Shown one piece after another: positions 30,826 through 64,000 of a stretch of DNA of 64,000 nt. The stretch comes from Temnopleurus reevesii (Eukaryota > Echinodermata > Echinoidea > Temnopleuroida > Temnopleuridae). Within the stretch, counting starts at the first letter, position 1. Every line of letters starts with the position of its first letter. The notes under the pieces were generated by a model, which searched no databases, was not told where the DNA came from, and saw only the letters and a list, made by a program, of their open reading frames with translations. Where the stretch lies: the NCBI GenBank assembly GCA_036244855.1, contig BQKZ01000695.1, positions 50,859 to 114,858 on the forward strand. Reading direction: 5' to 3'. The position numbers and the translations under genes were made by a program.

Positions 30826-31039
30826 GAACGTGGTACTTTCGACATTTCAGCTATAAATGGTTGCAAGGTTTGGAAAGTTTTTCAAACTCCACGTATGCCG
30901 TTTGAAGACGCTGCAGTTCAACATTCTGAATTGAATATTCTTTCTAATTTTGGTGAGACAATTATGACTGTCGCGTTGTTTGCTTCATGAATGAATGACG
31001 CTTGACATGCCATGCTCTTGAAACATAGGAATTTAGACC

Positions 31040-31910: not shown

Positions 31911-32760
31911 GGGATAAAATGATGGGTGGGCTATTGATCCGGGTAGGATAAGAGGAGGGGATCTGGTACTCGGCGTTCCCAAGTGGCGTCAAGTTCAACC
32001 AGGGAGGTGCTCTTTATGGCCCGATAGATCTTTGGAGGGGTGCCCCATTATGGTCGATGGATAAAAGATGTAGGGGGGGGGGGCGTTCAAATACTTGTTA
32101 TATCTTTAAATTTTCTCGTTTCACATATTTCCTGAATCACCTGTCCTTTCATCCGCTATCTTCCTATTTTTTTACCTTCTAATATTTCCCTTTTTCTATC
32201 CCTTGCTCACCTGTTGTCGATGAAAAAAAGTAGAATACTTCCCATTTTCCAATGTTTCTTGAGGAGTGAAGGTAAAGAAAATTTAAAGATATAAAAATGT
32301 TCATCTTGTGAGAGAGAATACGTTTGTTTTTATGAAGGGACGTGCGTGAAATGAAGAATAATTTTGCCTGAAACTATTTTGGAGGGCTTTCCTTCGCTAG
32401 ATAAACAATTTTTCGTAAACTGTCAAATGACGTGTAATGATTAGACATGATTGAGGATAAAATCTTATGCACGATTGGTGGGCTATCGATCCAGGAGAGG
32501 ATGAGAGGTCTGGGGGTTGGGGGGGNTCAAGTTCACCCAGGGAGGTGCTCTTTATGGCCCGATAGATCTTTGGAGGGGTGTCCCATTATGGTCGATGGAT
32601 AAAAGATGTAGGGGGGGGGGGCGTTCAAATATTTGTGTGGCTTATCATGTCTTTTCGTCTGTTTTCTATCAGCTGTCCTCTTTTCATCTATCTTCATCTT
32701 TTATGACCTGCTTATCTTTTCTTTTTCTTTTGATCGCCTGTTGTTGATGAGGAAAGTGAA
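31911..32760. repeat. duplicated segment around a single N
   Basis: About 31890-32100 is repeated at about 32440-32640 (GGATAAAAT, GGTGGGCTAT.GATCC and GGGAGGTGCTCTTTATGGCC in both, each ending in poly-G then CGTTCAAATA). A lone N at 32526 lies inside the second copy, so this may be two joined contigs and not a true repeat. Confidence 0.7.
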
Positions 32761-34796
32761 ATTCCCCCCATCTCATGTTTTTAGAAAGGGAATTTGAGGC
32801 TATGAATATGAAGACTCGTCATGCTCGTATATATCAATTATTATGAGCGTGAATACAGACTCACAGAAGCTATGACCAATATTACATGAAACTATATGGA
32901 TAAAACACGAGGGGGGTCCAAATATTTGTTATGCTTATCTTCTCGTTTCGCCATCGGTCGTTTGCAAAAGTGATTTTGTATTCACATTTCGTTTCCAAAA
33001 TAAGACTAGGAAGGAAAAAAGAGAAGATTTCAAAGTCTCCATCCAGTTTAAATTTCAGATGGAATGAAACGGCACAAGATTAGGGTGCAAAATTGGAGAT
33101 TGTGTGCAAAAAATAGAGCTGATGACTTTTTAAAGATTGCTGTTCAAAATATGAGGGGCACAACTGTTGGAAGATGTTCACCCCTTCCTCCTTCTCTCTC
33201 CCCCCCCCCCCCGGTCATCGAATCCTGGGTAAGGACATATGCTCTGAGTTGAATGTTCTTGTGAAGGGTTTTTCAATATGAAATTAAAAAAAAAATGAAC
33301 TAAAATCATTTTGAAAAGAACGTTATGCTTCTACTTCGTTTGACGCACTCGAAATATTATTGTGAATTTATCTGAAAGCTTTATTCTCCTATAAACCCTT
33401 CTATTAATAAACATTATAGTTATAAAAGAACAAAGAAAAGAAGGCTTAAGAAACAACAACAGTTTGACGGAAGCTCATACACCATGTACACGCAGCGCTA
33501 AGGCGAGTTTGTACAAGTTGCTTTCTGACTTGTTCGTCCTATACAAGGTGCCTAGCTGGTTTTCGCAAGTCGCCTTCCCGCCTTTTTCAACCAAAACAAG
33601 GCTCCGTGTATGGTGAGTTGAACAACCCGCCTTCGCGCTGCATGTATAACATGTATAAGCTTCTGGAGGATGTACTGTCGTTCCTAACTATAGGAGCTAG
33701 GATTAATTCATGTATAGAAACGCGCGTTAATTTTACTTCTTCTTTTCCTGTTTTTACGATTTTATTTTTAATAGAGCGAAATAGCAAGTACCTGACGATG
33801 TTTGAAAATTAACAGTCAAACGTTAAAAAACAAGAAAACAAAGCCACGAACATGTGTACCTTCTTCCTCGTTCTATAATAGCCAATCTAATTGGTTTTCT
33901 TAAAGGCTCAGGCTAAAGATGTTTACTCCCCTTCTCACGATAAATTGCTCATCTTTTCAAGAAGATGTAAAAAGTAAAGACAACAAACCAGGATTGTTTT
34001 GTTCTTTCGACCACACGCCTCGTGCCACGGTCAAAAAGAACCAAAGCCTTTTCTTTCGGGACAAAGGATCCAGGACCTGGTCTTTTCTTAGACCAAGTCC
34101 TGATTGGGACCAAACAATAGGAGGGGGAAGAGAGGTAGCCCAAGCCACGCGAGTATTAAAACTTTTTCAATGGGCTGCCGAGCTGTAGCTCTTGTTTAGT
34201 TTGTGTAATCTCGCTTAAATGGTTCGTGTTTTTTATTCTGTTTAAAAAGGAGTATTAAAGAAAGGTCAACATCTCATCAAAAGAGAAGAAAATCTCGTAA
34301 TTGGGGAAGCAAACAAATTTGCTTTCAAAAGTGATAAAAAACAAGGTTGTGATAGCTCGTGAGATAGATGAGAAAGGAAGGAAAGACTTGGTAATATAAG
34401 TTATTGTACATGTTGAAAGACATCAAATGTCAAAGGTGAAGGAAAAGGAGAAGAAAGAGGAAAAATGTAAAGATTCGCTTCCCTCGTTTGATTATGACCC
34501 TAGAAGATAAGGCCTCAAAATTGTTTGGTTGCCCAATAATCATGATAATGCATTTTCTAAAACAAAACGTCACTTCATCGAAAAAAATACTTTGAAAAAG
34601 GAGATGATAGTTAATAGCATGCGAACATCAGATAATTACTTGCCATGTCATGTATTTCTCATGCTTATCTGTACTTTTACTTATATCTTTATTTTAGATT
34701 TCAGCTATTATTGTAAGTGACTCAGGAAAGAGCAATATAGATAAGAGAATGAGCAGATGAGTAAATGAGTGAAGGTGTTAAAGAAGAAAAGGAAGA
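32761..34796. other. non-coding, small hairpin inside
   Basis: Mostly AT-rich DNA with a poly-C run at 33200-33212. A hairpin AGGACCTGGTCTT / AGACCAAGTCCT lies at 34070-34102. An open frame at 33919-34188 shows no known family. Confidence 0.45.
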
Positions 34797-36468: not shown

Positions 36469-38174
36469 ATACTGTGCACTTGTGGAGTGTTTTTAATAAA
36501 AAAAAAAACCCGTTTGGTTGGACGCATGCAAAAAACATAAAGGTGTGAGTCGGCCTTAGGAGAGGTGTGTTCTTTGCACCTGTTGTACAATGATCTTGGT
36601 GAAATCGGGACCGTTTCGAACTTCACAGCGGTCAACTCAAGTACGTCATAGAGCTTCCTGAAGTATTTGCCAAGGCCCAATTCAAAACGCTTTCAAAACT
36701 TATTTCCTCATAACGAGATTAAAAGCTGAGGGGGTTGCGAAAAATATGAAAATCCTTTTACTTTCAATTATCAGCATCATGAGAATTTTCAAAGCATCAA
36801 TATTAGAGGAACTTCTTTTCTAATGGGGGTGGAGAAAGGACGTATTCAATAGACATTCTATCGCAAAATTTGAAGTATTTTCATGATTTGACGATTTTTC
36901 AAGCTGCAAATTTTTTCACCACTACTGACACAATTTTTTTTAAAGGAGTGAAAATTGTATTTAAACAGAAAATGAAAACAAGGACATTGAATCACCAAAT
37001 GGATGTTTAATTGTATCAAAGGGGGGGGGGGGCATCGTCAAGCCTGCACACGCACGTAACAAACTTCTATTTAACATAATTTTCTTTTGTTTTTCTTTTT
37101 TTTTCTTACCAGTTTTACAATATCATCTTTGCAAGAAAAAAAACACCAAAATGATATCAACCAACAAAACATGATGCTAGTTCGACAACTGTAAAAAAAA
37201 AGTTTTGTTAGAGCCCAATTATATATCGCTATCCGAATCCTGGATCTGCGCCTGGAAATAGATTAAGTGTAAAGACAAATGTTCGGGCATGATGATTCTG
37301 GTAAACATATAAAATGTGGCTTAACTGAATAGGTAATTAGGACAGCTACTTGCTAATTGGATATGAAAACATGAATGAATGAACTCGGGTATGGCTCATT
37401 TTGGCTTTATGTATATACCTTTTGGCGACAAAGCATAAACCACTTCGGATGAATTCAAGAGGGACACATTTCTTAAAACATACAGCTTAATAAGATCCCA
37501 ATAACCATGATCATCGCTACAATTGTTGAGGTTAATGCCGGAAAGATCGACACATTTACATGTTTATTTTTATACTTCTCCACAAATGTTAACTTTTAGA
37601 TATCTGATTTGTATTTGGTGAATTAAGAAAGATGTGATTTACTTTATAAATTTGACAGAAAAGAATCAAAGCTGGTTTCGTTGTTCACTGGCTAGGTTTA
37701 CCCCCGAATTGGTCTTCTCGTTGATCTGAGATACTCAGAACTGATTAAAAAGAATAAATACGACAAGAAGACACTTTGTTTCTTGCGTTGTGTGAATTCT
37801 CAACTCATACGATTTGGCTCTTGTTACATCTGTTCATATGGTCAACAGGTCAAAGACATAAATTTTGATTCGTTCCATTTTAAACAACCGCATTCTACGA
37901 TCTACTTGACAAAACTTAACTACAAAACACATCAATTTTAATTAGTTTGTTTCTGGATTATTCTCTTTTGCTTTGATGTTCTTTATTGGTGTGACCATTC
38001 ACGCTAATACGCGATGACGATGACTTTGCCACACGCCCGAATAGCAATAGCGCGCGCAGACGATAATGATAAAGTCAACAAATTAAGGCTTTTATTTTCC
38101 CACCAACAATTAGTCAAGTATGTAATTGTCTGCTGTCGCCGTAACGGTAAATAACTACAGACAGTCCGTTGATC
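36469..38174. repeat. duplicated 1.7-kb block, copy 1
   Basis: It begins inside a family-A MITE right half and ends exactly at the lone N at 38175. It matches 38445-40179 nearly base for base over long stretches. Non-coding; the shared open frame (MGLGKYFRKLYDVLELTAVK) reads across MITE and flank and is not a known protein. Confidence 0.9.
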
Positions 38175-38278
38175 NATATTATGGAACTACTATGTGTTTA
38201 ATTTCAATGTCTTATCGAGCATTTATGAATATTTCTGTAAGAGGTTGGAAGTTGGAAAGGTAAGAGGAGAGCAGGGGT

Positions 38279-38534
38279 AAAGGCCGACTCACACCTTTGC
38301 GTTTTCAGCCTGCATCGACCCAGCGTTTTTGAAAATCAATAACGCTCCCTGGACGCATAAAGACACATGCAATACGGTGGACTGGCGTTCGCATATACGC
38401 TCCTTGAGCGGAAGCTGAGCATCAGTCCACCGTCTGACCAGCGTATACTGTGCACTTGTGGAGTGTTTTTAATAAAAAAAAAAACCCGTTTGGTTGGACG
38501 CATGCAAAAAACATAAAGGTGTGAGTCGGCCTTA
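38279..38534. mobile_element. MITE-like element, family A, copy 6 (complete)
   Basis: Left end AAAGGCCGACTCACACCTTT, right end AAAGGTGTGAGTCGGCCTTA. Its right half is the same sequence as 36469-36558, just after the gap. Confidence 0.9.
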
Positions 38535-40179
38535 GGAGAGGTGTGTTCTTTGCACCTGTTGTACAATGATCTTGGTGAAATCGGGACCGTTTCGAACTTC
38601 ACAGCGGTCAACTCAAGTACGTCATAGAGCTTCCTGAAGTATTTGCCAAGGCCCAATTCAAAACGCTTTCAAAACTTATTTCCTCATAACGAGATTGAAA
38701 GCTGAGGGGGTTGCAAAAAATATGAAGATTCTTTTACTTTCAATTATCACTATCATGAGAATTGTCAAAGCATCAATATTAGAGGAACTTCTTTTCTAAT
38801 GGGGGTGGAGAAAGGACGTATTCAATAGACATTCTATCGCAAAATTTGAAGTATTTTCATGATTTGACGATTTTTCAAGCTGCAAATTTTTTCACCACTA
38901 CTGACACAATTTTTTTTAAAGGAGTGAAAATTGTATTTAAAAAGAAAATGAAAACAAGGACATTGAATCACCAAACGGATGTTTAATTGTATAAAAAAAA
39001 GGAAGGGGGGGGGGCATCGTTAAGCCTGCACACGCACGTCACAAACTTCTATTTAACACAACTTTTTTTTCTTTCTTTTTTTACCATATTTGCAATATAA
39101 TTTTTCCAAGAAAAAAAACCCCAACAGCAACACCAAAATTATATAAACCAACAAAACATGATGCTAGTTTGACAACTATGTAAAAAACAGTTTCGTTAAA
39201 GCCCAATTATCGCTTTCCGAATCGTGTTTTGCGCCTGAAAATAGATTAAGTGTAAAGACAAATGTTCCGGCATAATGATTCTGGTAAACATATAAAATGT
39301 GGCTTAACTGAATAGGTAATTAGGACAGCTACTTGCTAATTGGATATGAAAACATGAATGAATGAACTCGGGTATGGCTCATTTTGGCTTTATGTATATA
39401 CCTTTTGGCGACAAAGCATAAACCACTTCGGATGAATTCAAGAGGGACACATTTCTTAAAACATACAGCTTAATAAGATCCCAATAACCATGATCATCGC
39501 TACAATTGTTGAGGTTAATGCCGGAAAGATCGACACATTTACATGTTTATTTTTATACTTCTCCACAAATGTTAACTTTTAGATATCTGATTTGTATTTG
39601 GTGAATTAAGAAAGATGTGATTTACTTTATAAATTTGACAGAAAAGAATCAAAGCTGGTTTCGTTGTTCACTGGCTAGAGTGAGTTTAATTCCTCTAGGT
39701 TTACCCCCGAATTGGTCTTCTCGTTGATCTGAGATACTCAGAACTGATTAAAAAGAATAAATACGACAAGGAGACACTTTGTTTCTTGCGTTGTGTGAAC
39801 TCTAAACTCATACGATTTGGCTCTTGTTTCATATGTTCACGGTCAACAGGTCAAAGACATAAATTTTGATTCGTTCCGGTTTCAACAACCACATTCCTAC
39901 AATCTACTTGACAAAACTTAACGACAAAACACATCATTTTTAATTAGTTTGTTTCTGGATTATGCGCTTTTGCTTTGATTTTCTTTATTGGTGTGACTAT
40001 TCACGCTAATATGAGATGACGATGACTTTGCCCGCACACGACCGAATAGCAATAGCGCAAGCAGACGATAATGATAAAGTCAACAAATTAAGGCTTTTAT
40101 TTTCCCGCCAACAATTAGTCAAGTATGTAATTGTCTGCTGTCGCCGTAACGGTAAATAACTACAGACAGTCCGTTGATC
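38445..40179. repeat. duplicated 1.7-kb block, copy 2
   Basis: Same order as copy 1, with scattered substitutions, homopolymer differences and a 20-bp insertion at about 39678-39697 (AGTGAGTTTAATTCCTCTAG). It continues past CCGTTGATC into CTAGGTAACC, where copy 1 stops at N. Confidence 0.9.
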
Positions 40180-48760: not shown

Positions 48761-50272
48761 ATGTATACTAAAATCATAGGAAGACAACTCATATATGCAC
48801 CTATTATATAATACTACTTTCTTCCCTTGAATAATATATCATGCCCCCAAACTGAAGGGGTTAAGAAAAGACATTTATTGGGCAAAGAGGGACATATGCA
48901 GTCCTTCACCCCCCCCCCCCCAAATTCAAATTCTGAACTGTGTTATAATTTCTCTGCACCCAATTGGTTTATCCCCATACCCTTCTGCCACTGATAGATG
49001 GTGTGGTCTGCTATTTAGATATTAGATATCATTATTCTCTTCCATCCAAATATGTTATATTGAACAATTTGGTAGAAGATCTGTGATGCAAGATAAATCA
49101 TAACACATGTAGACGTCCATGTTTCCAAAAAGTGATTGTCGGAAAAGTTACTCTTGCACAAAACCAGTAAATTTCATTGAAACATACTTTTCTATTAACA
49201 TAGATTTCAATTGGATGTCTTTTTTATTGCTGCTATGTCGGGATTTCTTTGTATTGATGCAAAACTACGCTATTGCTATCGTCCCTTCATGAAACCATAG
49301 ACGATTAATCCAGAAAGATTTATAAGCTTTCCTTCAAAATAGACAAAAACATTAATGAAAGATATTTTGCGCAATTACAGCTTGTGCCCTTACAAATTTG
49401 TATACAATTTTATGAACATCTTTTTAAAAAATTAAGTACTATTAAAGCCAGATATAAGTACAATACCATTATCAATTAATACATTTTTTTTTCAAATCAG
49501 ACTTACTTTACTTGAATCTTAATATCCAAAAATATTACAATTCCTGCAAAACATTCACACACAAAAATGGGTTACATGTAGACAAGAATATTCTCCTTGA
49601 AATGCAATTATAAGAATTAAAGCAAAAACTTTTCATGTTGAGCAAAACTTACCCATTCAATCAGAGGTTAGATTAGAATAGAGAGAGTTTGCAGTTCCAA
49701 AGTATAACTTGGAAACATTTGATTTCAAACAGGGCAAATTTATGAACAGTGCACACAACATCTCAAAATACATATTAGCAAACAAATTGTTTGCATCAAC
49801 ATTTCTCAAACTAAACAATCAATAAAACATTTAGAACAACACATTGTTCATTGTTCATACATGAGAAAAAAATTACAGTACATACTCTTTTACATAAATA
49901 TTTGACACAAGTAGAAAATATTTACAATGCAATATTCAATTCAAACAACAAATGCCTGATTCCAATAAAAATTTCATTCGTAAATGGGTATATATATTTC
50001 ATTTTTAAAATAGTTATCTACTGATTTTTTATTTTGTTTCAAGAAAGTATGAATAATGGATGGTCTTGTATATTGCTAGCGCATAACATAGCGCATAAGT
50101 GTCTCCGGATTCAAAATACGCATTTCATTTCATAAAGCAACACAATACAAAGATCTCTCATTTGATAAAGTTTTCAGTTTGATAAAGCTTTCAGTCGTAG
50201 AAAAAAAATGTTGAGGTAAACGTGCTATTTCACTACAATTTATTTCAAACATCTATTTGACGCATGCCTATG

Positions 50273-50325
<53 letters not shown>

Positions 50326-51328
50326 GTGGCCTTTTTTTATGGTCACACTCTACCCCTGCTGGGGGTTCATGTTGCTTGGGAACCGATACCAGTCTTGCAG
50401 GCAAATATTGAAACTAAAATATTTTCAGATATCTGTAGACCTCCCAAAATTTCAGACAGAAAAATGGTGATGATACTACTCAAGAGTAAAGAAAAACATG
50501 ACAGAAAACATTGACAAAATTGCTAAAAAATGGGCATGCGATTTGACTCATATAGAGGCACAAAATAATAGAAAACTGGCCAAAACAAATTATGAAAACG
50601 GAATGTCATGCAATTAAGTATGAATGAAAGAAAGCAGATCAGAAAATTTTACTTTGGTTGATATCACAAAATGCATAAATTCATATTTAATTTCATATTT
50701 CACAGAATGAGATTCAAACGAATAGCACTGTATAAAGCAGTTTATGCAGCATGCTGGCAAAAAAGTTGTTGGTATTAGAGAGAAAATGTTTGCTTTTTCT
50801 AGTAGACGGATTTACTAATAGATTCAAATTTTCTGCATCCTTTATACACAAAGCTTGTTCTTAACAACATCAAAGCTTGCCAGAGGCTTGTCCAACATAG
50901 CAACAATTAATGTATGTTAACTACGTTCCAGGTATTGTAGTTCAATTGTTACTTACCAGTTGAAGAAATAACAAGTCATTGGCTAGAAGCATGCACAAAT
51001 TTGGATCTACTAGTATACACCCATATTTGGGCCAGACAGTCAATTCATTTCTGAGTAGTAGAGAAAGAATATACATTACATGTACATGTGTATATCAAAA
51101 TTGAGTTACCGGTATATTCAAACTGAGAAATAAGTTACATATGAAGAATACAACATTCGCACTTCTGATCAATGTGCTGAAACCTGAAAATTAGTAATGC
51201 CACTTTTTGAGGATTTGAATAACCAACTTTTTGAATTTTTGACTGAATTGTGAATGAATAAATACATTTTCATAGCTGCCAACATGAGTCAATAGAAAAT
51301 CGTAATAATCCTGTTCCAAATTCATAAT
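48761..51328. other. non-coding AT-rich DNA
   Basis: No exon seen. Contains a poly-C run at 48909-48922 and a (GAT)n tract at 50273-50324. Confidence 0.45.
50273..50324. repeat. GAT trinucleotide microsatellite
   Basis: About 17 perfect GAT/ATG triplets. The poly-Met frame is an artefact. Confidence 0.95.
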
Positions 51329-51770
51329 CTTCACATATTTTACATTGAAATGCATGGTGCTAGTGTTGCAAAATTAATAGTCTTCACTTGGGCTAACACA
51401 AAACTTGACAAATCTGAGGCCCAAATTCATAATAATTACTAAAAAATAAGTAATAGTTTGCAGCTATGTTGCTGTACATGCCGGACATACCGGTACGTGT
51501 AATAACACACCAATGTGCAAATATATGTGGTATACAGTACATATTCTGACTTTCTTATTGAAATGTTCACTTGAAAAAAAAACCCAACCCAAACACTGAT
51601 GCAATATTGCATTGCTTCAGAAGACCCAGGAATACCTAGCTGAAATTCACCATCATGTTTTACTCATATTTGAATTACTTCACAAGAATTTTAACGTGAA
51701 CACAGACTTCCTGAGTATGTTTTAAAGACACTGCAAAACTAGATGCAAAACTAGGCAGCATTACAGTCTC

Positions 51771-51952
51771 TGAGGGGGTGTTGCTCAGAATAAAGTACAA
51801 ATCAACTGCAACTTTTGAAATTGTAATGCACATTTTTATTTGTGTGCGGTGTGCGCATTAAACAAGACGCGCATGAAACAATGATTTTGATTGGCTTATT
51901 GCGATCAACTGTAACTTGCAATCAATTGCAACCTTTGAGCAACACCCCTGAG
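51771..51952. mobile_element. MITE-like palindrome, family C, copy 3
   Basis: Ends GAGGGGGTGTTGCTCAGA and TTTGAGCAACACCCCTGA. It is present in block I but absent from the matching place in block II (about 53169), where GCATTACAGTTTCTATCAAG reads straight through. Confidence 0.9.
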
Positions 51953-52557
51953 TCTATCAAGGTAGCCAATGGCTTGAATTTATGTAAACTAAAAGTTTAA
52001 CTAGAAAATATCAATAATGAGATGAGAAATGTGCACAATGTAGGTGACATCCAATACAAAACTTACTTCTTCTCCTCTATACAACAAAGAATTCATTAAG
52101 AATTTCTTATAAAATATACCACATTTAGGAAAAACAAGTAATTTGATAGCTTTCATGTAAAGGCCATCATTAACTTTTTTTTAAACATGGAGACCTTTAG
52201 ATACAATTTTCTAGAGACAATCGTTCAACGAAAGTTGACCTTAGGTTTTTGGGCATGGTAGATGACCCGCTTTACAATTTGTGAAATATTTCTAGCATGT
52301 GCTTCCTCCAGCGAAGGAAAAGAATTAAAATTCAAGAACTTATTTCATCTCAGCAACCCCTTTTACCTTTTATGTTAAGGACTATAGCCAATCAAAGACA
52401 AATCTTTGTAGTTATAGGCGTGCGACAGAATGAATGTTTGTTGAAGATACCAAACCTGGAGCCTGTAACATCCAGAACTTAATTTTCCGTCTGTTGGAAC
52501 TGCAAATGACTAGACATTAGAGCTTTCTTGAAACTTTAGCTTGCTGATTGGCTCTTT

Positions 52558-52757
52558 CATTAAAGAGTGAGATCTTCTTAGTGATAGGTTAGCGACAGTG
52601 AGGACATTGTTTGAGCGGTCTTGAGCACTTCTTGCAGACGGAGTGCCCACATAGAAACACCACATTGCGTTTGTTCTCCATGCAGATCGCACAAAGGATT
52701 TCCTTTCCAATCTGCTGAAACTGCAGATGACTAGACATTAGAATTTCCTCGAAATGT
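52558..52757 (-). pseudogene. extra RING3 copy (block I), premature stop
   Basis: The minus strand encodes [20 protein letters not shown] then [15 protein letters not shown] and a stop in place of the Lys codon that follows in the functional exon. All zinc ligands of the C3HC4 finger are still present. The first half is identical in sequence to the copy at 54292-54450 and the 3' flank resembles that of 53851-54007, so it looks like a recombinant. It ends at the lone N. Confidence 0.85.
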
Positions 52758-52759
52758 TN

Positions 52760-53850
52760 CTTCACATATTTTACATTGAAATGCATGGTGCTAGTGTTGC
52801 AAAATTAATAGTCTTCACTTGGGCTAACACAAAACTTGACAAATCTGAGGCCCATTTCATAATTACTACTAAAAATAAGTAATAGTTTGCAGCTATGTTG
52901 CTGTACATGCCGGACATAATAACACACCAATGTGCAAATATATGCAGTATCTAGTACAAATTCTGATTCTACTTTTTAAATGTTGACTTGGAAAAAAACA
53001 TCTAAACACTGATGCACTATTCAATCGCTTCAGACGGCTCAGGAATACCTAGTTGAAATTCATTATCACGTTTTAACCATTTTTGCATCATTTCACAAGA
53101 GTTTTAGAGTGAACATAGACTTCCTGAGTATGTATTCAAGACACTGTAAAACTAGGCAGCATTACAGTTTCTATCAAGGTAGGCAATGTGTTATGAATTT
53201 CCGATTCACAACACATTCTTGTGAATTTACAGATTTTCAGGTAAATGTAAAATAAAATTTTCATTAGAAAATTTCTAAATACAAAGCAGTTGAGCTGAAA
53301 CATTTTGTAAAATGTAAAAGGACATCCTACTAACTTCTGCTCCTCCATACACAGAAGAATTACTTAACAATTCATTATAAGATAGACCATAAATGTAGCT
53401 ACAAAAATAGCAGTCATTTGGATAACATTCATGCTTGAGTAGAGGCTATAACTTATTCTTTTTGACATGCACACCTTTGGATGACATTTTCAGAGACAAT
53501 CGTGCAATAAAAGTTGACCTTTCGATTTTTGGGCACGGTAAATGGACTCTCTTTACAATTTGTGAAATATTTCAAGCATGTGCTTCCTACAGCGAAGGAC
53601 CAGAATTAAGATTCAAGTACTTATTACATCTCAGCAAACTCTTTTACCTTTTGTGTAAGGCCTATAGCCAATCAAAGACAAACCTTTGTAGTTATAAGCG
53701 TGCGGCAGAACGAATGTTTGTTGAAGATTATACCAAACCTGGAGCCTGTAAAATGAAGAACCGCCTTTTCCATCTGTTGAAACTGCAGATGACTGTAGAC
53801 TGTAGATGATTAGAACTTCCTTTAAATGTTCATTTGAAAACTGGATCTTC
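52760..53850. repeat. duplicated block II
   Basis: Second version of block I, without the family-C insertion and with many small differences. It leads directly into the array of RING3 copies. No coding content of its own was recognised. Confidence 0.85.
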
Positions 53851-54007
53851 AATTAAAAAGCAAGATCTTCTCAGTTATGGATTTGTGGGAGAGGGCGAAT
53901 ACTATTTGAGCGGTCTCGAACACTTCTTGCACACGGAATGCCCACAAAGGAACCCCACATTGCCTTTGTTTTCCATATTGGACAAAGGACCTCCTCTTTT
54001 ATCTGTT
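53851..54007 (-). pseudogene. extra RING3 copy, decayed
   Basis: The minus strand begins EEVLCPIW, where a deletion removes the second Cys and shifts the frame. Later CGHS-type sequence survives only in another frame. Clearly non-functional. Unit length and flanks match the neighbouring copies. Confidence 0.85.
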
Positions 54008-54070
54008 GAAACTGCAGTTGACTAGAGATGAAAACTTTCTTGAAATGTTAGCTTGAAGGCTATCTATTCA

Positions 54071-54229
54071 ATTAAAGAGTGAGATCTTCTTGGTTATAGG
54101 TTTGCGACAGAGGGGACACTGTTTGAGCGGTCTTGAACACTTCTTGCAGACGGAATGCCCACACAGGAACACAACATTGCATTTGTTCTCCATGCAGATC
54201 GGACATAGGACCTCCTCTCCAATCTGCTG
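54071..54229 (-). pseudogene. extra RING3 copy, intact finger
   Basis: The minus strand reads [40 protein letters not shown], then [13 protein letters not shown] and a stop. Every zinc ligand is present and there is no internal stop over 53 codons. The nearest acceptor-like CAG gives phase 0, which does not fit the phase-1 donor of the preceding coding exon, so use as an alternative last exon would need a different splice partner. It may be a silent copy or an alternative exon. Confidence 0.75.
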
Positions 54230-54291
54230 ATAGTGCAAATAATTAGAGTTTAGAACTTCCTTGAAATGTTAGCTTGAAATCTTGCTGTTCA

Positions 54292-54450
54292 GTTAAAGAG
54301 CAAGATCTTCTTTTTTATAGGTTTACAACAAAGCGGACTCTGTTTGAGCGGTCTCGAACACTTGCATATGGAGTGCCCACAAAGGAACACCTCATTGCGT
54401 TTGTTCTCCATGCAGATCGCACAAAGGATTTCCTTTCCAATCTGCTGAAA
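54292..54450 (-). pseudogene. extra RING3 copy, zinc ligand lost
   Basis: The minus strand reads [39 protein letters not shown] and ends LLFN stop. One Lys codon is deleted in CKKC, and Cys is replaced by Ser in the last Cys pair. The frame is open, but the finger is probably broken. Confidence 0.8.
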
Positions 54451-54467
54451 CTGCAGATGACTAGACA

Positions 54468-54790
54468 TTAGAATTTCCTCGAAATGTTCACTTGAAGACT
54501 TTCTCTTAAATTAAAGAGTGAAATCTTTTTGGTTATAGGTTTACGACAGAGCGGACACTGTTTTAGCGGTCTAGAGCACTTCTTGCAGACAGAATGACCA
54601 CAAAGGAACACAACATTGCGTTTGTTCTCCATGCAGATCGGACAAAGGACCTCCTCCTCCATTTGCTGATACTGATCCTTGAGACGTTTTAGCTCCTCCT
54701 CCTTGGATACCCGCCCCGACGATGCCCCTCGGGGTGTTGATGAGCCGGATGATGATGAAGATGATGATGCAGCTGGATGTGATGATTTTG
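54468..54790 (-). CDS. mib2: mind bomb terminal exon: Ser-rich linker and RING3
   Basis: The acceptor TTCTCAACAG precedes 54790. The exon starts with a Ser-rich stretch ([14 protein letters not shown]), then a short charged helix ([18 protein letters not shown]), then RING3 ([28 protein letters not shown]) and KKISLFN. Compared with the family, which ends within a few residues of this point, the protein runs on for about 15 more residues to TAA at 54468-54470. The spacing C-x2-C, C-x-H-x3-C-x2-C, C-x2-C is complete. Confidence 0.93.
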
Positions 54791-54816
54791 CTGTTGAGAA
54801 AAGAATAATAAAAATG

Positions 54817-54892
<76 letters not shown>

Positions 54893-57800
54893 TAATAATA
54901 ATACATGGATCTTATATAGCATACTTTCCATCCTAATAAGATGCTCAATGCGCTCAGAACAAATTAATTGAAGTAATGAAATACAGGGTTATGAAAAGAA
55001 AACTTAGAAAAGGGAAAAATCTATGATATTGCAGTGTTCAATATTCAATTAAGCCCTGTCTTAATATTGTTGGACACATTTATTTTCATTTATTTCATAA
55101 CATGATATAATTTCAAGCACCATATCACGCAAAATGCATGGGGATGTGTATTTTTTGTATTAATATTAATCAATATAGCTGGAATTCAGTCATTATTTTG
55201 CAGGGGGTTATGTTTTGAAATTATTGTGAATCATTACTGGGTTGAAAATTCAATAACACAATTATACATTTCCATACCAAATGCATGGGAAGTTAGGAAA
55301 TAATATCAAGAAATATCACCTCATAATGAAAATGACATTGGAATTTAATGAATTTTACTTCCTAATCATGGATTTAACAACTTACAATACTACTCTCACA
55401 ACTCAAGTCTCTAAAATTCCAACATATATGTATGGTAAATATCTTTGGCTTATACAGGATATCGAGTATATTGATCAAGTATGAATAATGAAAGCAATGA
55501 TGAACCTTGTTTGGAACTGGAGGATGAGGATCGATGTTGCTGGGAGGATGACGACGATGACGATGATGAAGGACCAGACTGGGACGAGGACGAGGAGGAG
55601 GAGGATGAGATGGTGACTCGGTGTCCAGCTGGTTGGGGTACGCAGGCAGTAGGGTGAGGGCAGGGTGGGGTGTGATGGAGAAACATGCATAAATCATAAA
55701 GAAATGGTCATGCACCATGACATAATACATTGAAATGAACAAAAATTAAACAAAATAATGAAGGGCGAGTTGAAGGAAACCATCACAAAGGTACTACTAC
55801 ACATGATATCAGACAACAGGCAGATGATCTTAGCCACATGATCATAGCCAAAGGGCCTTCCTACCAGGAACCTGTTGCATGAAACTTCTTGCCATAGAAA
55901 ACTCTGGCAAACTTTATGCCAGAGTGTTTACCTGTGGAAGAGTTTATGGCGAAATTTCTCTTTGTCAAAGTTTTTGTTATTTGCCAGTTTTCTTTGGCCA
56001 AAACGTTTTATGCAACGGGATCAAGGTGTTGATAAAAAGCAAATAATAAATGGCCTTACATTTCCTTTCTGATAATATTTTTCTTGAAAAAAACTTTTGA
56101 TTCATGAAAATATGAATTCAAGTTATGTCTAACCATGAAAAACATTGCTACTTGAAAATTACACTAAACCAGTGATTACACATTGAAAAGGGAACAAAAA
56201 GAGTGGATGGGGAGAAGTGGAGAGGGAGAGTTGAAACATATGCTCAAAGATTAACATGCATCTCACAGTTAACACAGACATGAATCTTGGGGTATTATAA
56301 AGTCAACATACCGAGACAAATTAAAAACATGCTTGCATACAGTTAATGATGCAAAAGAACATGAATAAACAAAATTACATGCCAAATCATTGATTTTTCC
56401 TAGTTGATAAATCTGATATGCATAAAATAGACTTACCTTTGTCTAACATTTCTTTAACAGGTTGTCCACATGCTCTGCAAGTCTTCTCCTTACAACAGCA
56501 TCCTATGAGAAAAGACAACCCATTCCAGGGGTTAATGGTTACATTAAGATATTGGATATGTACAGTATATAAAACGTTAATGCAGCTGAGCAAGCAATCA
56601 GAGAAATCTATTCACACCCGAAATGAATCACTTAGTGCTTCATAGCATGAAAATGGAATTAGAGCTTGACATTTATAATCAAAACTTCTAAAAGCCTGTT
56701 GGAATAAGTTACCTTTGACATTCAGGCAGTTGCGATCCCTCCCTTCCTTCAAGAGAGAATCTACAATGTTTCTTTTTGGCGATCATGATTTCTACACATC
56801 CTTTTCGCGAATGCAATGTATGGCTTTGCCTTTTTGGTGTCATTAATCAATTCAATATAAGAGACTGTGTTACTTAGGGAAAAGTGTAAAAGAAAAATTA
56901 GTATTACTTTTATCATTATAATCATTATTTACATGCATTTACTGCATAAGTTGACATTTTTGCGGTAGTGTTATTTTCGCAAATTTAGAGATCCGAACCT
57001 TGCAGAAATTTGTACTCAGTATGATGCACTTTCATACGCATACAAACACTGTCAAAAACGTAAAAATATGCTAAAATATCAAACTGGTCCAAAATATCTG
57101 CATTTGAAAATGTTGGCTATACAGAATTTTGTCCTTACCTCTGCATACATTTCTATGACCACAAGGTAGAAAGGTTACTTCAGCCTTGTTGGTAGAACAC
57201 ATTGCACATTTCTTCTCTTCTATCTTCACACGATCCTTCACCTCAATCTAAAAACAAATGGAATATAAAAAGATTTAAATTATGGTTGGAACTCTGTTGT
57301 GGAGGCATTGTGGTGTAACGGTTTATAACATTTGCCTTTCATCACAAGGGGTGTAGGTTCCAATCCCACTCATGACATTAATTTCCTCCAGCAAGAAATT
57401 CACCCTTATCATGCTGCATTCGACCCAGGTGAGGTGAATGGGTACCAGTAGTATGAAATTCCTTGAATGCAGTGAGCATCATATGGTGGCCTTGCTATAG
57501 CCGGGTAATAATGAAGCGTGCTTAGAAACATTTTGTATTAAGTGGTATATAGATTTTGCATATTATTTTGACCATTATTATTATTGTTGGAACAGGACAA
57601 TCAGGTAAAGAATAGTGTGGGGGAGGCATATTGAAATCAGAGAGGGGAATCAAGGAAAAGGTTAATCATGCACCAAGCAAATATCAAGTGGGAAGGAAAA
57701 TACAATGAAAGAGAAAAGGAGGCAAGGCAATAGAAAACAGCCGAGACAGGGAGAAATAGAAATGAAGAAGGGGAAGGGAAAAGTCATACTTTGCATCATT

Positions 57801-60800
57801 TTTGGAAGATTGCAGCACAGTCCATACTGGCCATCGCACAGTTTGAATCAACAATTTGCTGGCTCCTGACACATCCTACAGTCTGACATAATCATCTGCA
57901 TGTTATCGGGGAAATCCCCGGAGATATTATATATAGAGAGAAAAGGAGAGAGTGGGGAGAGAGAAGGTGGAAGGGAGAGTAGAAGAGACATACCTTGCAA
58001 GTAAAGCACTTTTGGAAGAGTCCTGCACAGTCCATACAGGCTATCTGGTGACCACAAGGTTTGAATTGGCAGTTTGCTGGTTTCTGACACATCCTGCAGT
58101 CTGACATCATAGCCTCTAGGTTCCCAGGGGTATCCCCGGATCCACTTTCCACCGGTGCTGCTGGCCCTGGTGCTGGCACTGGCGCTGGTGGGGGGCCCGA
58201 TGGAGTAGTGGGGCCTCTCACATTTTGGTTTGAGGAGCCTGCAAAGGATAGATAAAAGGAACATACTGTATCAATTGAAAGAAAACTTGACAGGGAAGTG
58301 AAAAAAACAACTCATGCTATTTTCCATATTTTGGGCATGGAAATTGAAAAATTGATTAGCGATCCACTGGGTGCTTGCCAGGTATAATTGTTATGCATGG
58401 CTAACAACTCTAACCGATATCCTTAATTGATGCAAGCAAATTTCTTGTGGTGCAGACTAAAATCACATCATGAAGGAATGATAAACTTTAAATGTAAATA
58501 TTTTATTTCATTAATTTACAATCATCGGCTGAGTTCCCTGGAAATACACTTTCATCTATTTCTAAACTCTAATTTCTCTAGAATAGAGGGTCAAATTTCT
58601 AAAATTGGGGAATATTCATGACAATTTTTACCTGGGGTATCTGTTCTGCTAGCCAGTAACCTTTCTTGACTTGCGCTCCTGCGTCTTCGACCGTGCTTGG
58701 ATTCTTTGTCCTGCCTCTGCTTTTGTCTGTTGGAATAAAACAAATAAATCACTATATTTTTATCTAAATCATGATATACTTTAATTTTGAATTTCATTTC
58801 TGCTGTTTGTTATGTCAAGAATATCAAGAATTATTGGCGGCAAACAGAATGGAATGTTCATGTAATTCTCTGACAAATCTCACTATGGAATCAAGAAAAT
58901 GAGGTGTAGTGAAATCTAAATCCTGTTGCTGGGGGAAATACATTGATTTCATAGATAGTGTATTCATGTATCAGAAATATTTCAGAGATAAATCATATCT
59001 AACTCTGCTCATACGTAGAGATACTAACGGCAGTTAATGAATCCATACAGGGATAGATATTACAATGTGAATAACCAAACAGCAAAACCCAATATTCTAT
59101 TATGAGCGAAAACAATATGCATGGCAACATGGAAAGTAAGCACTGCATTATTTTAAAAATATGTCTGAAATTCATTGAATTTGCTTAACTTCATGAAGGG
59201 TTTTATAAATATTGTTGTTTACGTTACGTTTACTGAAAATAAGTCCTACCTTCTTTGTTCATAGAGTTGAAGCAAGTAGTTCTTGATCTTGATGTCTAGG
59301 ACCAGGTCCAAGGGAGATTTATGCTGATGATTCCTATGAGTAAGACTACCTCCAGCATGGACTAAGTAACACACCGTTGCTATCGCCATGTTCACAACCA
59401 GCCCACTGACAATCTTGGTTCGGTACTGCGAAGATGGAGGGGGAAAAAAAGTTTAGGACCAAGTCCAACAGAGATTTGGTACACAAGATAGAACAGTACT
59501 TTCAGGTCAGTGCTAGGAATACATGCAAAGTATTGACTGTTACATCGCTTTCAGCATAGAATTCTTGTCTAACTAGAACGAGATGAAGACAGCAAGCTAA
59601 ACAAGATAGGACACTACTTACAAATGAGCTATATGAATACATGGTAATCACTACCTGTTGTATAATAGGGGAGCCATCTCTTCTTGCGTACACCTCGTGT
59701 CTAACGAGAGCAAGATGTAGACTGGTATCAACATCATCCTCCTCACTTCAAGCTACACAAGATAAGACACTATTTACAATCAAATTGCAAGAATACACGT
59801 AGATTACTCCATGTTGTATAATGGATGAGTCATCTCTTTCTGCATATACCTCCTGTTAAACTAGAACAAGATGAAGACAAAAAGCTAGACAAGATAGAAC
59901 ACAATTTTCAAAACAATGCTACGATTACATGTAAAATGCTACCTGTTGTATAATGAGTGAGTTATCTCTCCCGGCATACACCTATTCTCCAACAAGAACA
60001 AGATGAAGACAACAAGCTAAACAAGAAAGGACACTACTTACAAAAGCTACATTAATAAATGTAATTATATCTCATCTATGAATATTCATGAGCTATCAAG
60101 CTATATGATTGGTCGGTGGGAACAAACATGCTTACATATATTTCAACTAGTAAAGAAGCCTCTAAAACGAGTTTGATATATTTTTTGATATACTCAACCG
60201 CGGTAGAAATACACAACTGCGCACGCACAGAACATGTGAAGCGATCCGCGAGAACCTAAGCAAATATGGCAACGTACACGAAAAATTTTGCTGTCGGCCA
60301 GCTTTTGATCTACTCATTTGTAATTATTCATTCTGTGAAATGTTTAAATTGATAACATTAACTTTCTCACAACAATGCTCTACTCTACATTAGTACTAAT
60401 ACTACGATTCAGGAGAAACATATTGTTTAATAATCAGTTAGAAAATGTAGCGAACAGTGACAGTGCAGCACTGTGCTGTGACTGACTGTGAAATTTAATG
60501 ACTGTGCCGTGTCTGAGTACAGTGCGTCTGAAAACACGACAGTTAGGCCGAGTGTCTGAGTAAGTTTAACTTGTTTTCTCTTAATTTTAATGAGATATAA
60601 ATCAAATACCCAAACAGTTACTTCAAAAGTATATTGGAATTATAATCCTTCGGATGGGCTGGCAAAGGAAACTATATTTCCTCGGGAGCTTCGCCCCTCG
60701 GAAAAATAGTAACTGCCAGCCGATCCTCAGAAATATAATTCCAATATACTTTCTCAGAGTTCGAGATATTTGAATAATATACAACCTGTTGTATAACTGG

Positions 60801-61980
60801 CGAGTCATCCCTCTAAGGATAGACCTCCTGTCTGACAAGAGCGAGATGGAGACAGCAAAATGGAGACGTGAAACCAGCTACACAAAATAGAACACTAACG
60901 GAGGACAAATGGTAAGAATACATGCACAATACTACCTGTTGTATAATGGGCGAGTCATCTCTCTCTGCATAAACCTCCTGTCGGACGAGAGCGAGATGTA
61001 GACTGGTGTCGCCATCCTCATCCTCTGCCGACACCTCAGCTCCCTTTGAGATGAGAAGCTCAATCACGTTGGTGTGGCCTTGGCCTGCTGCTAGGATGAG
61101 GGGCGTCTGACGGCGGTTGTTCCGAACATTCACATCGCCATGACCCTGTCATTGGGGAGGAAAAATAATGACGATTGTCAGTATAAGCTCAAGGTTGTTG
61201 AGAACTAGGAGTTCGATTAAGAGAGTGTGCAGTCTGGCTGCAAGAATAAAAGGTATTTGACAGCAGTTGTTACAAACCTTATTCTAATTTGGAATATAAA
61301 ATTTGAGCAGGATGAAAAGAATGATATACAATACTATTAAAGCAAAAGTCGCTGTTGTACACAATCGACCTTCATACACAGATTCCTTAGCCCTTACTTC
61401 TGTGCTAAGGTAAACAACACAGGTCATCTCTATTGAAGGTTGGCCACTATTGAAAGGGGGTTATTACAGACATATGGCAGCTGTGACAAATTGATTGCAC
61501 AGTAAAAATCTGCTTATTTAATCTTTAAGTTCAAAGACATGTAGTTAATCATGCATCCCCAGGCCCATATGGTACATGTAAAAGTGTTACAGGAAAGCAA
61601 TGTTTGTGTGCTAAGGATGCCCTTGTCAGATGTAGATCTTATTATATGAAAGTTTATACAAAAGTAGGGAACAATGATACACCCAATAATCATTTCCATT
61701 CTAAATATTATCAACAAGCTCATATAAACAGTAAAAATATACATATAGGATGACCAGCAAACCTGGGTTGTGATTCATGAAGCTGTGCATAGATCTACGC
61801 ACGAATGTACGAAAGAATGGTGATACTATCTTCAGTGCAATTAAGCGCCAGCATTTATCTTTGAGAGCGAGAAAGGATCACCAGTCGTTCGTACAGTTGT
61901 GCATAGAACTAAGCACAACTTTATGAAACCCAAACCAGAACTCTGACAGCCACTGCTACTTGTTAGTAACCTTTGAGTAC

Positions 61981-62011
<31 letters not shown>

Positions 62012-63850
62012 TAAAAAAACATACAGAAATATCTGAAAGAACAAATAGACAAATCACAAACCTGAACAAGAAGAGTCTCAGCGACATCTCTGTGGCCATT
62101 GAGCGCTGCAAGATGAAGGGCTGCATAACCATCATCTTTCTTCAAATTCACCAACTGTCTTGCTTTTAAAACCAGTTTTTCAGTTGCACTGCAAAAGGCA
62201 AAAATATATGACATTTTTATATTTTTTAGGATAACTAAGACAACGACTGGTCAAAATATTTATAAAATACAGATACCAATATTGAGATATTAGTCCTAGA
62301 TCTTGAAAAATAATATCTTCACAAGAATAAGGTGTGGTAAGAAATCACCCGAGTCACGTATTTATTGCATGAAGCCCAATGAAAAAACATGAAAATAAAT
62401 ATTTCAAAATGTAGATGAAAAGAAATATTTATTTGTTAAACAAAGCAATATTCATTAATAATTGGCATATATAGAGTACCAATCTCTATCTAGAGGGTGT
62501 TGCTACAAAAACTGCAAATCAATAGGAAATTGAAACCTGCATTTTCAGTCGCACACGTTCTGTGCCCCGTAACATAAAGGTTTGCGATAAATCGCTATTT
62601 GAGTTTGCGATCAATTGCAAACTTTAGTACATGATTTGCCATAGTCTTGCGATTGAGATTAGCAATCAATCGCAAACCTTTATGTTACGGGGCCCTGGGC
62701 TTCTGACAAGATGTGCATGAAATAATCATTTTGATTGGCATGTAAAGACAAACTGCACCTTGTGATCAATTGCAACTTTGTAGCAACAACCTGCTAGAAT
62801 GGTTGGTCTACATTCATCCACCATAACAATTTTCTCCTACTAGAACCTAATTCGAACCTGGCAGACAGTGGCAAATGTGGATGTGATTCTTCCAAAGGGA
62901 ATTAGTGTCCTAATATCGTCCCTTTGGAGCCAGAAAGGCGCTATCACTGTAAACGGTGATTGAAGCGAGTGACCTTCTTGCATTACGCTGACTATGTGAT
63001 GGAGTAAAAAATGAAACTTACTACTTGTTGCCCTTTAGGGCAGCATGATGGAGAACGTTGAACCCTCTGCGATTCTTGAGACTCAGGTCAGCTCCATGAG
63101 CCTCGACAAGAAGATCAATGATGTCACGATTGTCCTTGGCGATGGCATCGTGGAGTGCTGTATCACCATACAGGTCCTACAAAATGAAATGGAAACTTAT
63201 GTAAGAGAAAAAATATCACTAATGCAAGGGCCCAAATGAAACTGACAAAGGCTTCAATCTACATCTAAATAGAAGTTGAATACTAATACCGATAATTGAA
63301 AGTCAACTTCCTCCTATCACAACACAATGAGTCAAGCAACCTTGATTCCCTTCATTGATTATGCAATATACTTGATGATTTACATTTGATAATTGTTCTT
63401 AAAAAGCGTGAGGTTATCAAGTGGTACCCTAAATACCATTTTCAAGGTTCCCTGCATTTCATGAAAACAATGTCATCTCAGTTTTTACCAAAATTCCCCT
63501 CAAAGTAAATCAAATGTGATGTGCTTTCACATCAAAATCTATTTCACCAAATTGAACCTAAAATATATGCATAATTGCCAAATAAAAACTGTTATTATAT
63601 TTCTGTCATTATCTTTCTAACAAAAATGTGTAAAAAGAAGAACTAAATATCTACAAAAACCCGTAATTTCTCATAATTTGGAAGATTTCTTACCTGTAAG
63701 TTAGCATTACATCTGTGCCGCAGAAGGACCCTGACACAATCCACAAAGCCTTTGTTGACAGCTACATGAAGACTGCTACAATTTCCCTTATTGACAACGT
63801 TCATGTCGGCATTTTTACTGATTAGGTACTCTGCAACATCTGGTTGTTTA
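54468..63850 (-). CDS. mib2: mind bomb-type E3 ubiquitin ligase (MIB2-like), 3' eleven exons
   Basis: Eleven exons joined in one frame give about 594 residues and a stop: 63850-63694, 63176-63022, 62188-62062, 61145-60936, 59425-59250, 58726-58632, 58238-57994, 57247-57139, 56502-56437, 55628-55506, 54790-54468. Mind bomb proteins ubiquitinate Delta/Serrate-type ligands and promote their endocytosis, which activates Notch in neighbours. Seen: ankyrin repeats ([33 protein letters not shown]), a basic linker, three C3HC4 RINGs and an Ser-rich spacer between RING2 and RING3. The ankyrin part looks closer to MIB2, yet three RINGs are as in MIB1, so the paralogue is uncertain. The N-terminal Mib/Herc2 and ZZ domains must lie right of the window. 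Three exons have tandem partial copies next to them. Confidence 0.92.
54812..54902. repeat. AAT microsatellite just upstream of the terminal exon
   Basis: About 28 AAT triplets (plus strand), ending some 20 bp before the exon acceptor. On the gene strand this is a (TTA)n tract in the region of the branch point. Confidence 0.95.
54903..54965. mobile_element. SINE tail fragment
   Basis: TCTTATATAGCATACTTTCC and GATGCTCAATGCGCTCAGAA next to the AAT repeat resemble the 3' end of the SINE at 48478, with the microsatellite as its tail. Fragmentary. Confidence 0.45.
55506..55628 (-). CDS. mib2: mind bomb exon: Ser-rich spacer
   Basis: Phase 1 on both sides. Encodes [20 protein letters not shown] followed by a second Ser run and [12 protein letters not shown]. 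The Ser runs come from TCC/TCA/TCG triplets. The acceptor is CCCCAACCAG; another AG nearby could be used, so the 5' edge is less sure than the rest. Confidence 0.75.
56437..56502 (-). CDS. mib2: mind bomb exon: second half of RING2
   Basis: The 66 nt exon encodes [20 protein letters not shown]. Together with the preceding exon it completes the finger (CRGC, then CRAC). The intron therefore cuts RING2 between its second and third ligand groups. Donor GTAAGT is perfect. Confidence 0.88.
57139..57247 (-). CDS. mib2: mind bomb exon: first half of RING2
   Basis: Encodes [20 protein letters not shown] then [15 protein letters not shown]. It matches the KIEECVVCSDKKA.VLFQPCGH pattern of mind bomb RING2. 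Ends in phase 1 before GTAAGG. Confidence 0.92.
57299..57580 (+). mobile_element. tRNA-derived SINE, copy 2
   Basis: Starts TGTGGAGGCATTGTGGTGTA, has a box B-like GGTTCCAATCCC, then CAGGTGAGGTGAATGGGTACC-type body sequence (shown in part: GGTGAGGTGAATGGGTACC), and ends in ATTATTATTATTG. Opposite orientation to the copy at 48478 and inside a mind bomb intron. Confidence 0.85.
57787..57921 (-). pseudogene. decayed tandem copy of the RING1 exon
   Basis: Minus strand: [13 protein letters not shown], then a stop where the real exon has CQFK, then frameshifted remains of the [12 protein letters not shown] part and CTGCAATCTTCCAAAAATG. The donor GT after the last codon is lost. The copied unit includes the CT-rich intron sequence after the exon, so about 210 bp was duplicated. 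Confidence 0.88.
57994..58238 (-). CDS. mib2: mind bomb exon: Pro-rich linker and RING1
   Basis: Starts in phase 1 after CCTTTGCAG. A Pro/Ala-rich linker ([14 protein letters not shown]) leads to RING1: [30 protein letters not shown]. All ligands are present. Ends in phase 0 at AAG|GTATGT. Confidence 0.93.
58632..58726 (-). CDS. mib2: mind bomb exon: basic linker
   Basis: Encodes [20 protein letters not shown] and [11 protein letters not shown]. The RRRRSAS run could be a phosphorylation or nuclear-type basic site, which is only a guess. Flanked by TTCCAACAG and GTAAAA. Phases 2 and 1 fit both neighbours. Confidence 0.85.
59250..59425 (-). CDS. mib2: mind bomb exon: last ankyrin-like segment
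   Basis: Encodes [20 protein letters not shown], then [20 protein letters not shown]. This corresponds to the ACFL...GAD...N..G.SPLDL segment just before the RING part in the family. Acceptor CTTCGCAG, donor GTAGGA. Confidence 0.9.
59535..60935 (-). repeat. tandem partial copies of the ankyrin exon 3' end
   Basis: The last part of exon 60936-61145, with its splice donor and about 70 bp of following intron, is repeated at about 59535-59600, 59654-59740, 59810-59875, 59942-60010 and 60786-60855. The 59654 copy still reads open ([20 protein letters not shown]) up to CAACAG|GTAGTG. The 60786 copy has a stop. Units are about 130-156 bp apart, except where 60045-60780 is inserted. Confidence 0.88.
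60045..60780. mobile_element. insert within the exon-repeat array
   Basis: About 735 bp unlike the array. Its right part holds an inverted repeat: AAGTATATTGGAATTATA (60627-60644) and TATAATTCCAATATACTTTC (60734-60753), with an inner GGGAGCTTCGCCCC hairpin and GGGCTGGCA / TGCCAGCC. The left limit is approximate. Probably a transposed element; family not recognised. Confidence 0.55.
60936..61145 (-). CDS. mib2: mind bomb exon: ankyrin repeats
   Basis: Seventy codons, phase 0 at both ends: [20 protein letters not shown], then [20 protein letters not shown], then [20 protein letters not shown]. This matches the MIB ankyrin region (V..RN...Q.PL.LA, AEDE.GDT.LH.AL). Its 3' third is the source of the downstream repeat array. 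Confidence 0.93.
61146..61767 (-). other. mind bomb intron, nothing recognised
   Basis: AT-rich intron sequence without visible elements. Confidence 0.6.
61768..61935. mobile_element. MITE-like palindrome in mind bomb intron
   Basis: Left GGGTTGTGATTCATGAAGCT and right AACTTTATGAAACCCAAACC pair loosely. GTGCATAGATCTACGCAC / GTGCATAGAACTAAGCAC and a GGTGATACT / GATCACC pair lie inside. Related to the 46437-46503 element (CATAAAGCGATGCGTAGATC). Confidence 0.65.
62062..62188 (-). CDS. mib2: mind bomb exon: ankyrin repeat
   Basis: Encodes [20 protein letters not shown] and [20 protein letters not shown]. The [19 protein letters not shown] segment is highly typical of mind bomb proteins. Acceptor CCTTTTGCAG, donor GTTTGT. 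Confidence 0.94.
62492..62791. mobile_element. family C element split by a family D insert
   Basis: The outer halves (AGAGGGTGTTGCTACAAAA ... CACACGTTCTG and TTCTGACAAGATGTGCATGA ... TTGTAGCAACAACC) together match family C. Family D at 62564-62694 interrupts them. TTCTG on both sides may be the target duplication. Confidence 0.8.
62564..62694. mobile_element. MITE-like palindrome, family D, nested copy
   Basis: GCCCCGTAACATAAAGGTTT and AAACCTTTATGTTACGGGGC form near-perfect arms, with CGATAAATCGCTATTTG-type inner sequence. Confidence 0.9.
63022..63176 (-). CDS. mib2: mind bomb exon: ankyrin repeats
   Basis: Encodes [20 protein letters not shown], then [20 protein letters not shown], then [10 protein letters not shown]. 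Two possible donors occur, GTAGTA and GTAAGT. The GTAAGT choice (end at 63022) keeps the family's spacing to the next exon. Confidence 0.94.
63694..63850 (-). CDS. mib2: mind bomb exon: ankyrin repeats
   Basis: First recognised exon from the 5' side: [20 protein letters not shown], then [20 protein letters not shown] and HRCNANLQ. Acceptor CCTTATACAG, donor GTAAGA, starting with one base of a split codon. The preceding exon is beyond the right edge. Confidence 0.92.
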
Positions 63851-64000
63851 CTGTATAAGGAAAATACAATGATTCATAAAAATAGTTTTACATGGTACAC
63901 AAGAAGCTTGTGTTTGATAAAGAAAATATGTTCAGTCAACTCTGTTTAACCCTATTTTAACTGGGCTTTTTCAGACCAAGTTTATACTGGGGGGGGGGGG
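63851..64000 (-). other. mind bomb intron up to the window edge
   Basis: Intron sequence; the last ten bases are a run of G at the window end. Confidence 0.6.

Follow-up and report, generated by a model that had tools for sequence, protein, structure and literature searches.

Can a gene keep spare copies of its last exon, and have such copies ever served as alternative ends of its protein? The question is raised by a 64-kb stretch of the genome of the sea urchin Temnopleurus reevesii (contig C695, 50859-114858, within a 558-Mb assembly; hereafter, the window), whose minus strand carries the 3' half of the MIB2 gene and, behind the last exon, an array of copies of the segment that encodes its third RING finger (RING3). 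We give an even chance to the reading that this array is now mostly dead and lies in a probable 3' untranslated region (UTR), with a partly coding past for some of its copies.

The array behind the last MIB2 exon

The gene was modelled with 11 exons, with AG at 11/11 acceptors and GT at 10/10 donors, and the model yields a 594-residue C-terminal protein in which Pfam recognizes ankyrin families and three RING stretches. Its best annotated match is MIB2 of Strongylocentrotus purpuratus (78% identity over 626 columns), followed by MIB2 of Diadema setosum (68%) and, lower, by sea star proteins (49-51%). Judged by its domain order, ankyrin repeats and then RING fingers, and by a best match annotated as MIB2, the gene is the MIB2 E3 ligase. 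The N-terminal MIB/HERC2 and ZZ domains would fall outside the window. Another contig carries two regions that match MIB2 residues 1-79, 2.4 kb from each other (G000:C7630:24027-24263 and 21584-21820; best 41 of 1929 candidates scored), and the gene therefore seems to be split between contigs of the assembly. The exons and copies on which the argument turns are as follows.

58238-57994, minus strand: E7, the RING1 exon, with a phase-0 donor at 57994; from the gene model with GT-AG sites
57247-57139, minus strand: E8, first half of RING2; from the gene model
56502-56437, minus strand: E9, second half of RING2; from the gene model
55628-55506, minus strand: E10, a serine-rich linker exon with donor AAG/GTTCAT in phase 1 (the slash marks the splice site, here and below)
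54790-54468, minus strand: E11, the real last exon with RING3 (R3, 54668-54510), ending 13 residues beyond the ancestral stop
54447-54292, minus strand: copy c1, with in-frame loss of one lysine and ligand Cys38 changed to Ser; Pfam RING score 20.5 against a cutoff of 27
54229-54071, minus strand: copy c2, an intact RING that keeps the frame, the eight Cys/His ligand positions and TGA; Pfam score 43.7 bits
54008-53852, minus strand: copy c3, decayed, with indels of -4 and +2, a stop and lost ligands
53779-53640, minus strand: c3b, a remnant unit with an internal deletion; end approximate
52717-52559, minus strand: copy c4, interrupted by a stop past the eighth ligand, at codon 43; 52717-52663 are identical to c1 and unreliable
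52496-52360, minus strand: c5, a remnant and paralogue of c3b; end approximate

The R3-coding segment is thus repeated as four same-strand copies, c1-c4, and two internally deleted remnants. Copies c1, c2 and c3 adjoin without a gap and are followed by c3b; c4 and c5 lie beyond a single N at 52759. The copied unit runs from CAG to the codons for LFN and comprises 159 terminal coding bases together with some 62 bp of 3' flank, giving a period of 221 bp. It begins about 117-122 bases inside the last exon, and the exon's own splice acceptor was not copied. With a period of 221 bp and 4.0 units, the array is recognized by Tandem Repeats Finder at 53803-54674 (score 1043). Its units are 77-87% alike, and when the window is searched by blastn with the last exon, c2 is recovered at E=3.7e-59; the score and the E value rule out chance similarity. 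These searches bear out the first-pass annotation, which had listed four same-strand RING3 copies behind the real last exon, and its description of their states (ligand lost, intact, decayed, and stopped beyond an N) holds for c1, c2, c3 and c4. What it had called a repeated RING3 segment is a real repeat; the unit consists of the exon's 3' portion together with its flank, and two further remnants belong to the array.

An intact RING frame is found in only one of the four copies, c2, which also matches the structure of MIB1 RING3 (8v0d) at 6.7e-13 and carries the change R17C. The eight ligands were assigned by the C3HC4 pattern together with the Pfam match. The TGA after LFN is kept in c1, c2 and c3 and is absent from E11, which reads 13 residues past LFN (54468-54509). 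The RING3 part of R3 matches the S. purpuratus protein at every residue as far as KKI and then differs by one residue before LF; among the deuterostome MIB2 relatives listed, seven end in LFT, LFTG, FTG or FH, and P0007 ends in LFL. By comparison with these endings, it is the real last exon that has lost the ancestral stop. Directly ahead of its acceptor lies an (AAT)n microsatellite of 33 units (54804-54903).

The array is confined to a single locus of the assembly as far as this was searched, with the best candidates scored: one search returned five matches to the unit (R3 and c1-c4), and a second returned six, the sixth being a 43-base match to the exon start on another contig. A second MIB2 locus that could have supplied the array was likewise not found among the best candidates scored (41 of 1929 in one search). 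The stretch from the R3 stop to 51840 lacks AATAAA and ATTAAA and has a single TATAAA, at 54319; transcription may therefore extend through the array as 3' UTR. An Rfam scan of 51000-58500 gave no RNA family at the gathering score, and a phage collection searched with c2 gave no match. A read-through protein with several RINGs is ruled out because the unit length of 221 bp is not divisible by three and TGA is retained after the RING in c1-c3.

The substitution record of the copies

Counted pairwise as synonymous/nonsynonymous changes, R3 and c2 differ by 13/3 and c2 and c4 (codons 19-53) by 9/1 plus one stop; the counts are 20/11 for R3-c3, 16/12 for R3-c1, 12/11 for c1-c2 and 13/19 for c1-c3, the least skewed pair. 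Flanks diverge among units by 0.25-0.71 substitutions per site. Changes private to c2 are rarer in coding sequence (5/152) than in flank (7/62; p=0.043), as are those private to c3 (p=0.046) and to c4 (p=0.034, with c4 unmasked in this test); no such deficit was seen for c1 or R3. In the codon-model fits and position counts below, codons 1-18 of c4 were masked and only codons 19-53 used.

A codon model with two values of omega, the nonsynonymous-to-synonymous ratio, gave 0.19 for the copies and 0.016 for R3 on the best-fitting of the 9 topologies tried (15 are possible). For the copies, omega=1 was rejected (twice the log-likelihood difference, 24.98; p=5.8e-7), and 0/100 null simulations reached the observed value, their maximum being 7.63. 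The result was stable when four topologies were refitted (0.18-0.19), when the six CpG-polymorphic codons were masked (0.16, p=2.1e-6) and when the copies were analyzed without R3 (0.18, p=2.7e-7); dropping R3, c3 or c4 still left neutrality rejected. Within the set, the subset of R3, c2 and c4 gave a copies' omega of 0.027 (p=1.2e-5 against 1), and that of R3, c1 and c3 gave 0.52 (p=0.14), which fits neutral decay. Minimum changes fell on third positions in 28/51 cases (P=0.0012), or 24/42 without CpG sites (P=0.0012), and this excess is located in c2 with c4 (9/11, P=0.0014), not in c1 with c3 (14/33, P=0.16). Among terminal branches taken alone, omega=1 is rejected for c4 (omega 0.03, p=8e-5) and for c3 (p=0.029). 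For a copy that is re-seeded from the working exon and then decays, the expected ratio is about 0.5 or higher, by our own derivation and with a clock assumed; this bound was rejected for the pooled copies (p=0.0016-0.004) and for the terminal branches (p=0.012).

By these substitution tests, neutral drift does not account for the copies as a set. The signature of protein-level constraint appears in the pooled copies and in c2 with c4; it does not appear in c1 with c3 or on the terminal branch of c2 alone. The first-pass annotation had proposed that neutral substitution in the intact copy would mark the array as dead. The non-neutral set and the 13/3 split between R3 and c2 speak against neutrality and therefore support a coding past for the set, although the branch of c2 on its own is compatible with neutral change. 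Overall, the substitution record suggests a coding past for some copies, c2 and c4 foremost.

The reading that we favor is as follows. A terminal segment of the last MIB2 exon was repeated in place in tandem, and a larger block containing such a unit was repeated beyond the N; unequal exchange is the probable source of the duplications. The array would now lie either within the 3' UTR or immediately downstream of the gene, mostly dead, after a history in which some copies were probably under protein-level constraint for a good part of the time. The simplest cause of such constraint would be that upstream exons could splice to the copies by way of the acceptor-like sequence ahead of the units, so that the copies served as alternative terminal RING fingers, a use that would be lost or nearly lost in the present genome. 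Going one step further, we regard it as doubtful that MIB2 once had, and in c2 perhaps still has, a cassette of alternative terminal RING fingers that is now being lost; were this true, splicing would let MIB2 change its last finger, which is presumably the catalytic one.

Several points weigh against a coding past. Taken singly, the terminal branches of c1 and c2 are compatible with neutrality (p=0.14 and p=0.13), and without c4 the copies' omega is 0.25, which differs from 1 at p=1.2e-4 and from the re-seeding value of 0.5 only at p=0.048; c4, which thus carries much of the result, is the copy that adjoins an assembly joint. The sample is small (53 codons and five sequences, with c4 contributing only codons 19-53), the pairing of c2 with c4 was picked after the codon table had been seen, and one tree was assumed even though exchange between copies is likely. 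The donor of E10 gives no phase-matched join to the copies. Finally, the same gene holds a comparison array in which a low omega was also obtained.

60853-59543, minus strand: five partial copies of the 3' end of the ankyrin exon E4 (61145-60936), the comparison array

These fragments sit in the intron that follows E4, flanked by sequence resembling acceptors and donors. Internal stops interrupt three of them, a fourth is truncated, and the fifth (59744-59655) is open over the 21 codons compared. With 4/5 thus carrying stops or truncated, they gave omega 0.22 (p=1.3e-4; best of 105 topologies) and third-position changes in 20/36 cases (P=0.005). After the seven CpG-polymorphic codons were masked, omega rose to 0.54 (p=0.23), and without CpG sites 8/17 changes fell on third positions (P=0.1). 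Because only 14 E4 codons remain after masking, the contrast with RING3 is suggestive and not proof, and the E4 array is only partly usable as a clean neutral control; a function-free process may be common to both arrays.

Alternative readings of the copies

The rival that survives best, which we nonetheless consider doubtful, is that c2 is a live alternative terminal exon, reached from a phase-0 donor and giving part of MIB2 a different RING3. Such an exon would start at CAGCAG/ATT ahead of c2 (CAGCAG at 54229-54224, minus strand), a candidate acceptor at the 97.4th percentile of the 784 AG sites in 50000-64000. The scoring matrix is small, being built from the gene's own 11 acceptors, which score at 48.5-99.0% in leave-one-out, a range that includes the c2 site; an alternative c2 site, TATCAG/CAG, lies at the 71.7th percentile, and like sites reach 92.9% for c1 and 82.9% for c3. 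These acceptors would start the copies in phase 0. Splicing from E10 is ruled out by its phase-1 donor, as the first-pass annotation had noted in pointing instead to the phase-0 end of the RING1 exon at 57994, and both remarks proved correct. A second phase-0 donor, the weak GAG/GTCCTT at 54650 inside the last exon, ranks at 86.8% among 831 GT sites, against 84.8% for the real E10 donor. Joins to c2 from 57994 and from 54650 are both predicted to be in frame, the former dropping RING2 and the latter exchanging the finger while keeping the rest of the protein.

The intact RING with its TGA, the quality of the acceptor, the two in-frame joins and the constraint on c2 with c4 all agree with live use. 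Against it, the donor at 54650 lacks A+3 and G+5, a skip from 57994 would cost the protein RING2, all three sister copies (c1, c3 and c4) are broken, and the terminal branch of c2, compatible with neutrality, carries R17C. A search of short annotated proteins with the last exon, weak because of its length filter, gave 0/186 candidates with E<=0.001.

That the copies were dead from birth, as unselected duplications of the 3' flank whose synonymous excess reflects chance, CpG decay or repeated re-seeding by conversion, we consider unlikely. Three of the four copies are broken, c1 with c3 fits neutral decay, and the E4 array looked similar before CpG masking. Same-strand local duplication is moreover common in the window, at 61/306 tiles (the RING3 and E4 arrays and a duplication at 36-40 kb included), and the duplications themselves are therefore ordinary. 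Yet neutrality is rejected for the copies as a set, the RING3 signal survives CpG masking, and the re-seeding bound is rejected, if only narrowly once c4 is removed.

The last rival concerns c4 and its surroundings, and we hold it to be improbable: c4 and its block would be a misplaced haplotype or paralogue contig, and c4 the terminal RING of another gene copy, past or present. It is compatible with dead or once-coding c1-c3 and can hold alongside the other rivals. Two features bear on it.

52759: single N, a probable assembly joint, with flanks exactly copied across it
52758-51329, minus strand: second block, collinear with 54049-52760, its aligned pieces at 76% and 83% identity

The 96 bases to the left of the N equal 54393-54488 exactly, and the 95 bases to its right equal 51329-51423 exactly. 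Beyond these matches c4 drops at once to paralogue level, and in a gapped alignment the other flank remains closely similar over about 160 bases. The N thus looks like an assembly joint, and because exact copies lie flush to it, c4 bases 52717-52663 are not trusted. The window has three single-N joints, and at each of them a flank next to the N has a match on the far side, in one case at 93% over 1.7 kb; of the two longer gaps, 0/2 have a match flush to the gap. One of the three joints, at 32526, sits inside a local tandem array, which gives its match another possible reason. The flush matches at the joints and the terminal omega of c4 would suit a misplaced contig. Against this, the two aligned pieces of the block to which c4 belongs diverge by 17-24%, which is above expectation for alleles; no second RING3 locus was found among the best candidates scored in the assembly, and the copies other than c4 keep an omega well below 1.

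Known systems and other features of the window

Duplication of exons in tandem is a well-known phenomenon, and a survey describes it in both coding and untranslated parts of genes (PMC9013439). The MIB2 array resembles these cases in that adjacent same-strand copies of an exon of the same gene arose in place. It differs in that the unit is part of a terminal exon plus 3' flank; its own acceptor is missing, and a working exon would therefore need a new splice site. A second likeness is to lola, described as joining common exons to unique terminal exons, mostly zinc-finger-coding, by cis- and trans-splicing (PMC1947980). Common upstream exons of MIB2 could similarly be joined to one of several finger-coding terminal exons; unlike those of lola, the MIB2 units are 77-87% alike, mostly broken and here described from genomic sequence. 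The copied domain corresponds to the RING that MIB1 is reported to need, alone among its RINGs, for the substrates known so far (PMC6713736; PDB 8v0d), whereas the gene here is MIB2, for which the same need would hold by analogy. A limited literature search found no description of a splice-exchanged RING for MIB genes.

If the copies were used, the catalytic finger of the ligase became a splice choice. If they were not, the locus is a caution on two counts: exon copies can mimic constraint when CpG decay is ignored, and repeats flush to single-N joints can resemble extra exons.

The window holds further duplications. Directly behind E7 lies one more fragment of the same gene.

57922-57797, minus strand: decayed partial copy of the RING1 exon E7

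At 36469-40179, a 1.7-kb sequence is repeated at 93% identity, with one copy flush to a single N at 38175; it is possibly a haplotype or false duplication. More local tandem arrays, with units of roughly 140-280 bp, lie outside the gene at 29001-29800 and 31001-32800. About 44 kb from MIB2, a plus-strand open frame at 9266-10447 encodes a Hairy Orange domain (Pfam 44.3 bits) and ends in WRPW, a motif known from HES/hairy repressors.
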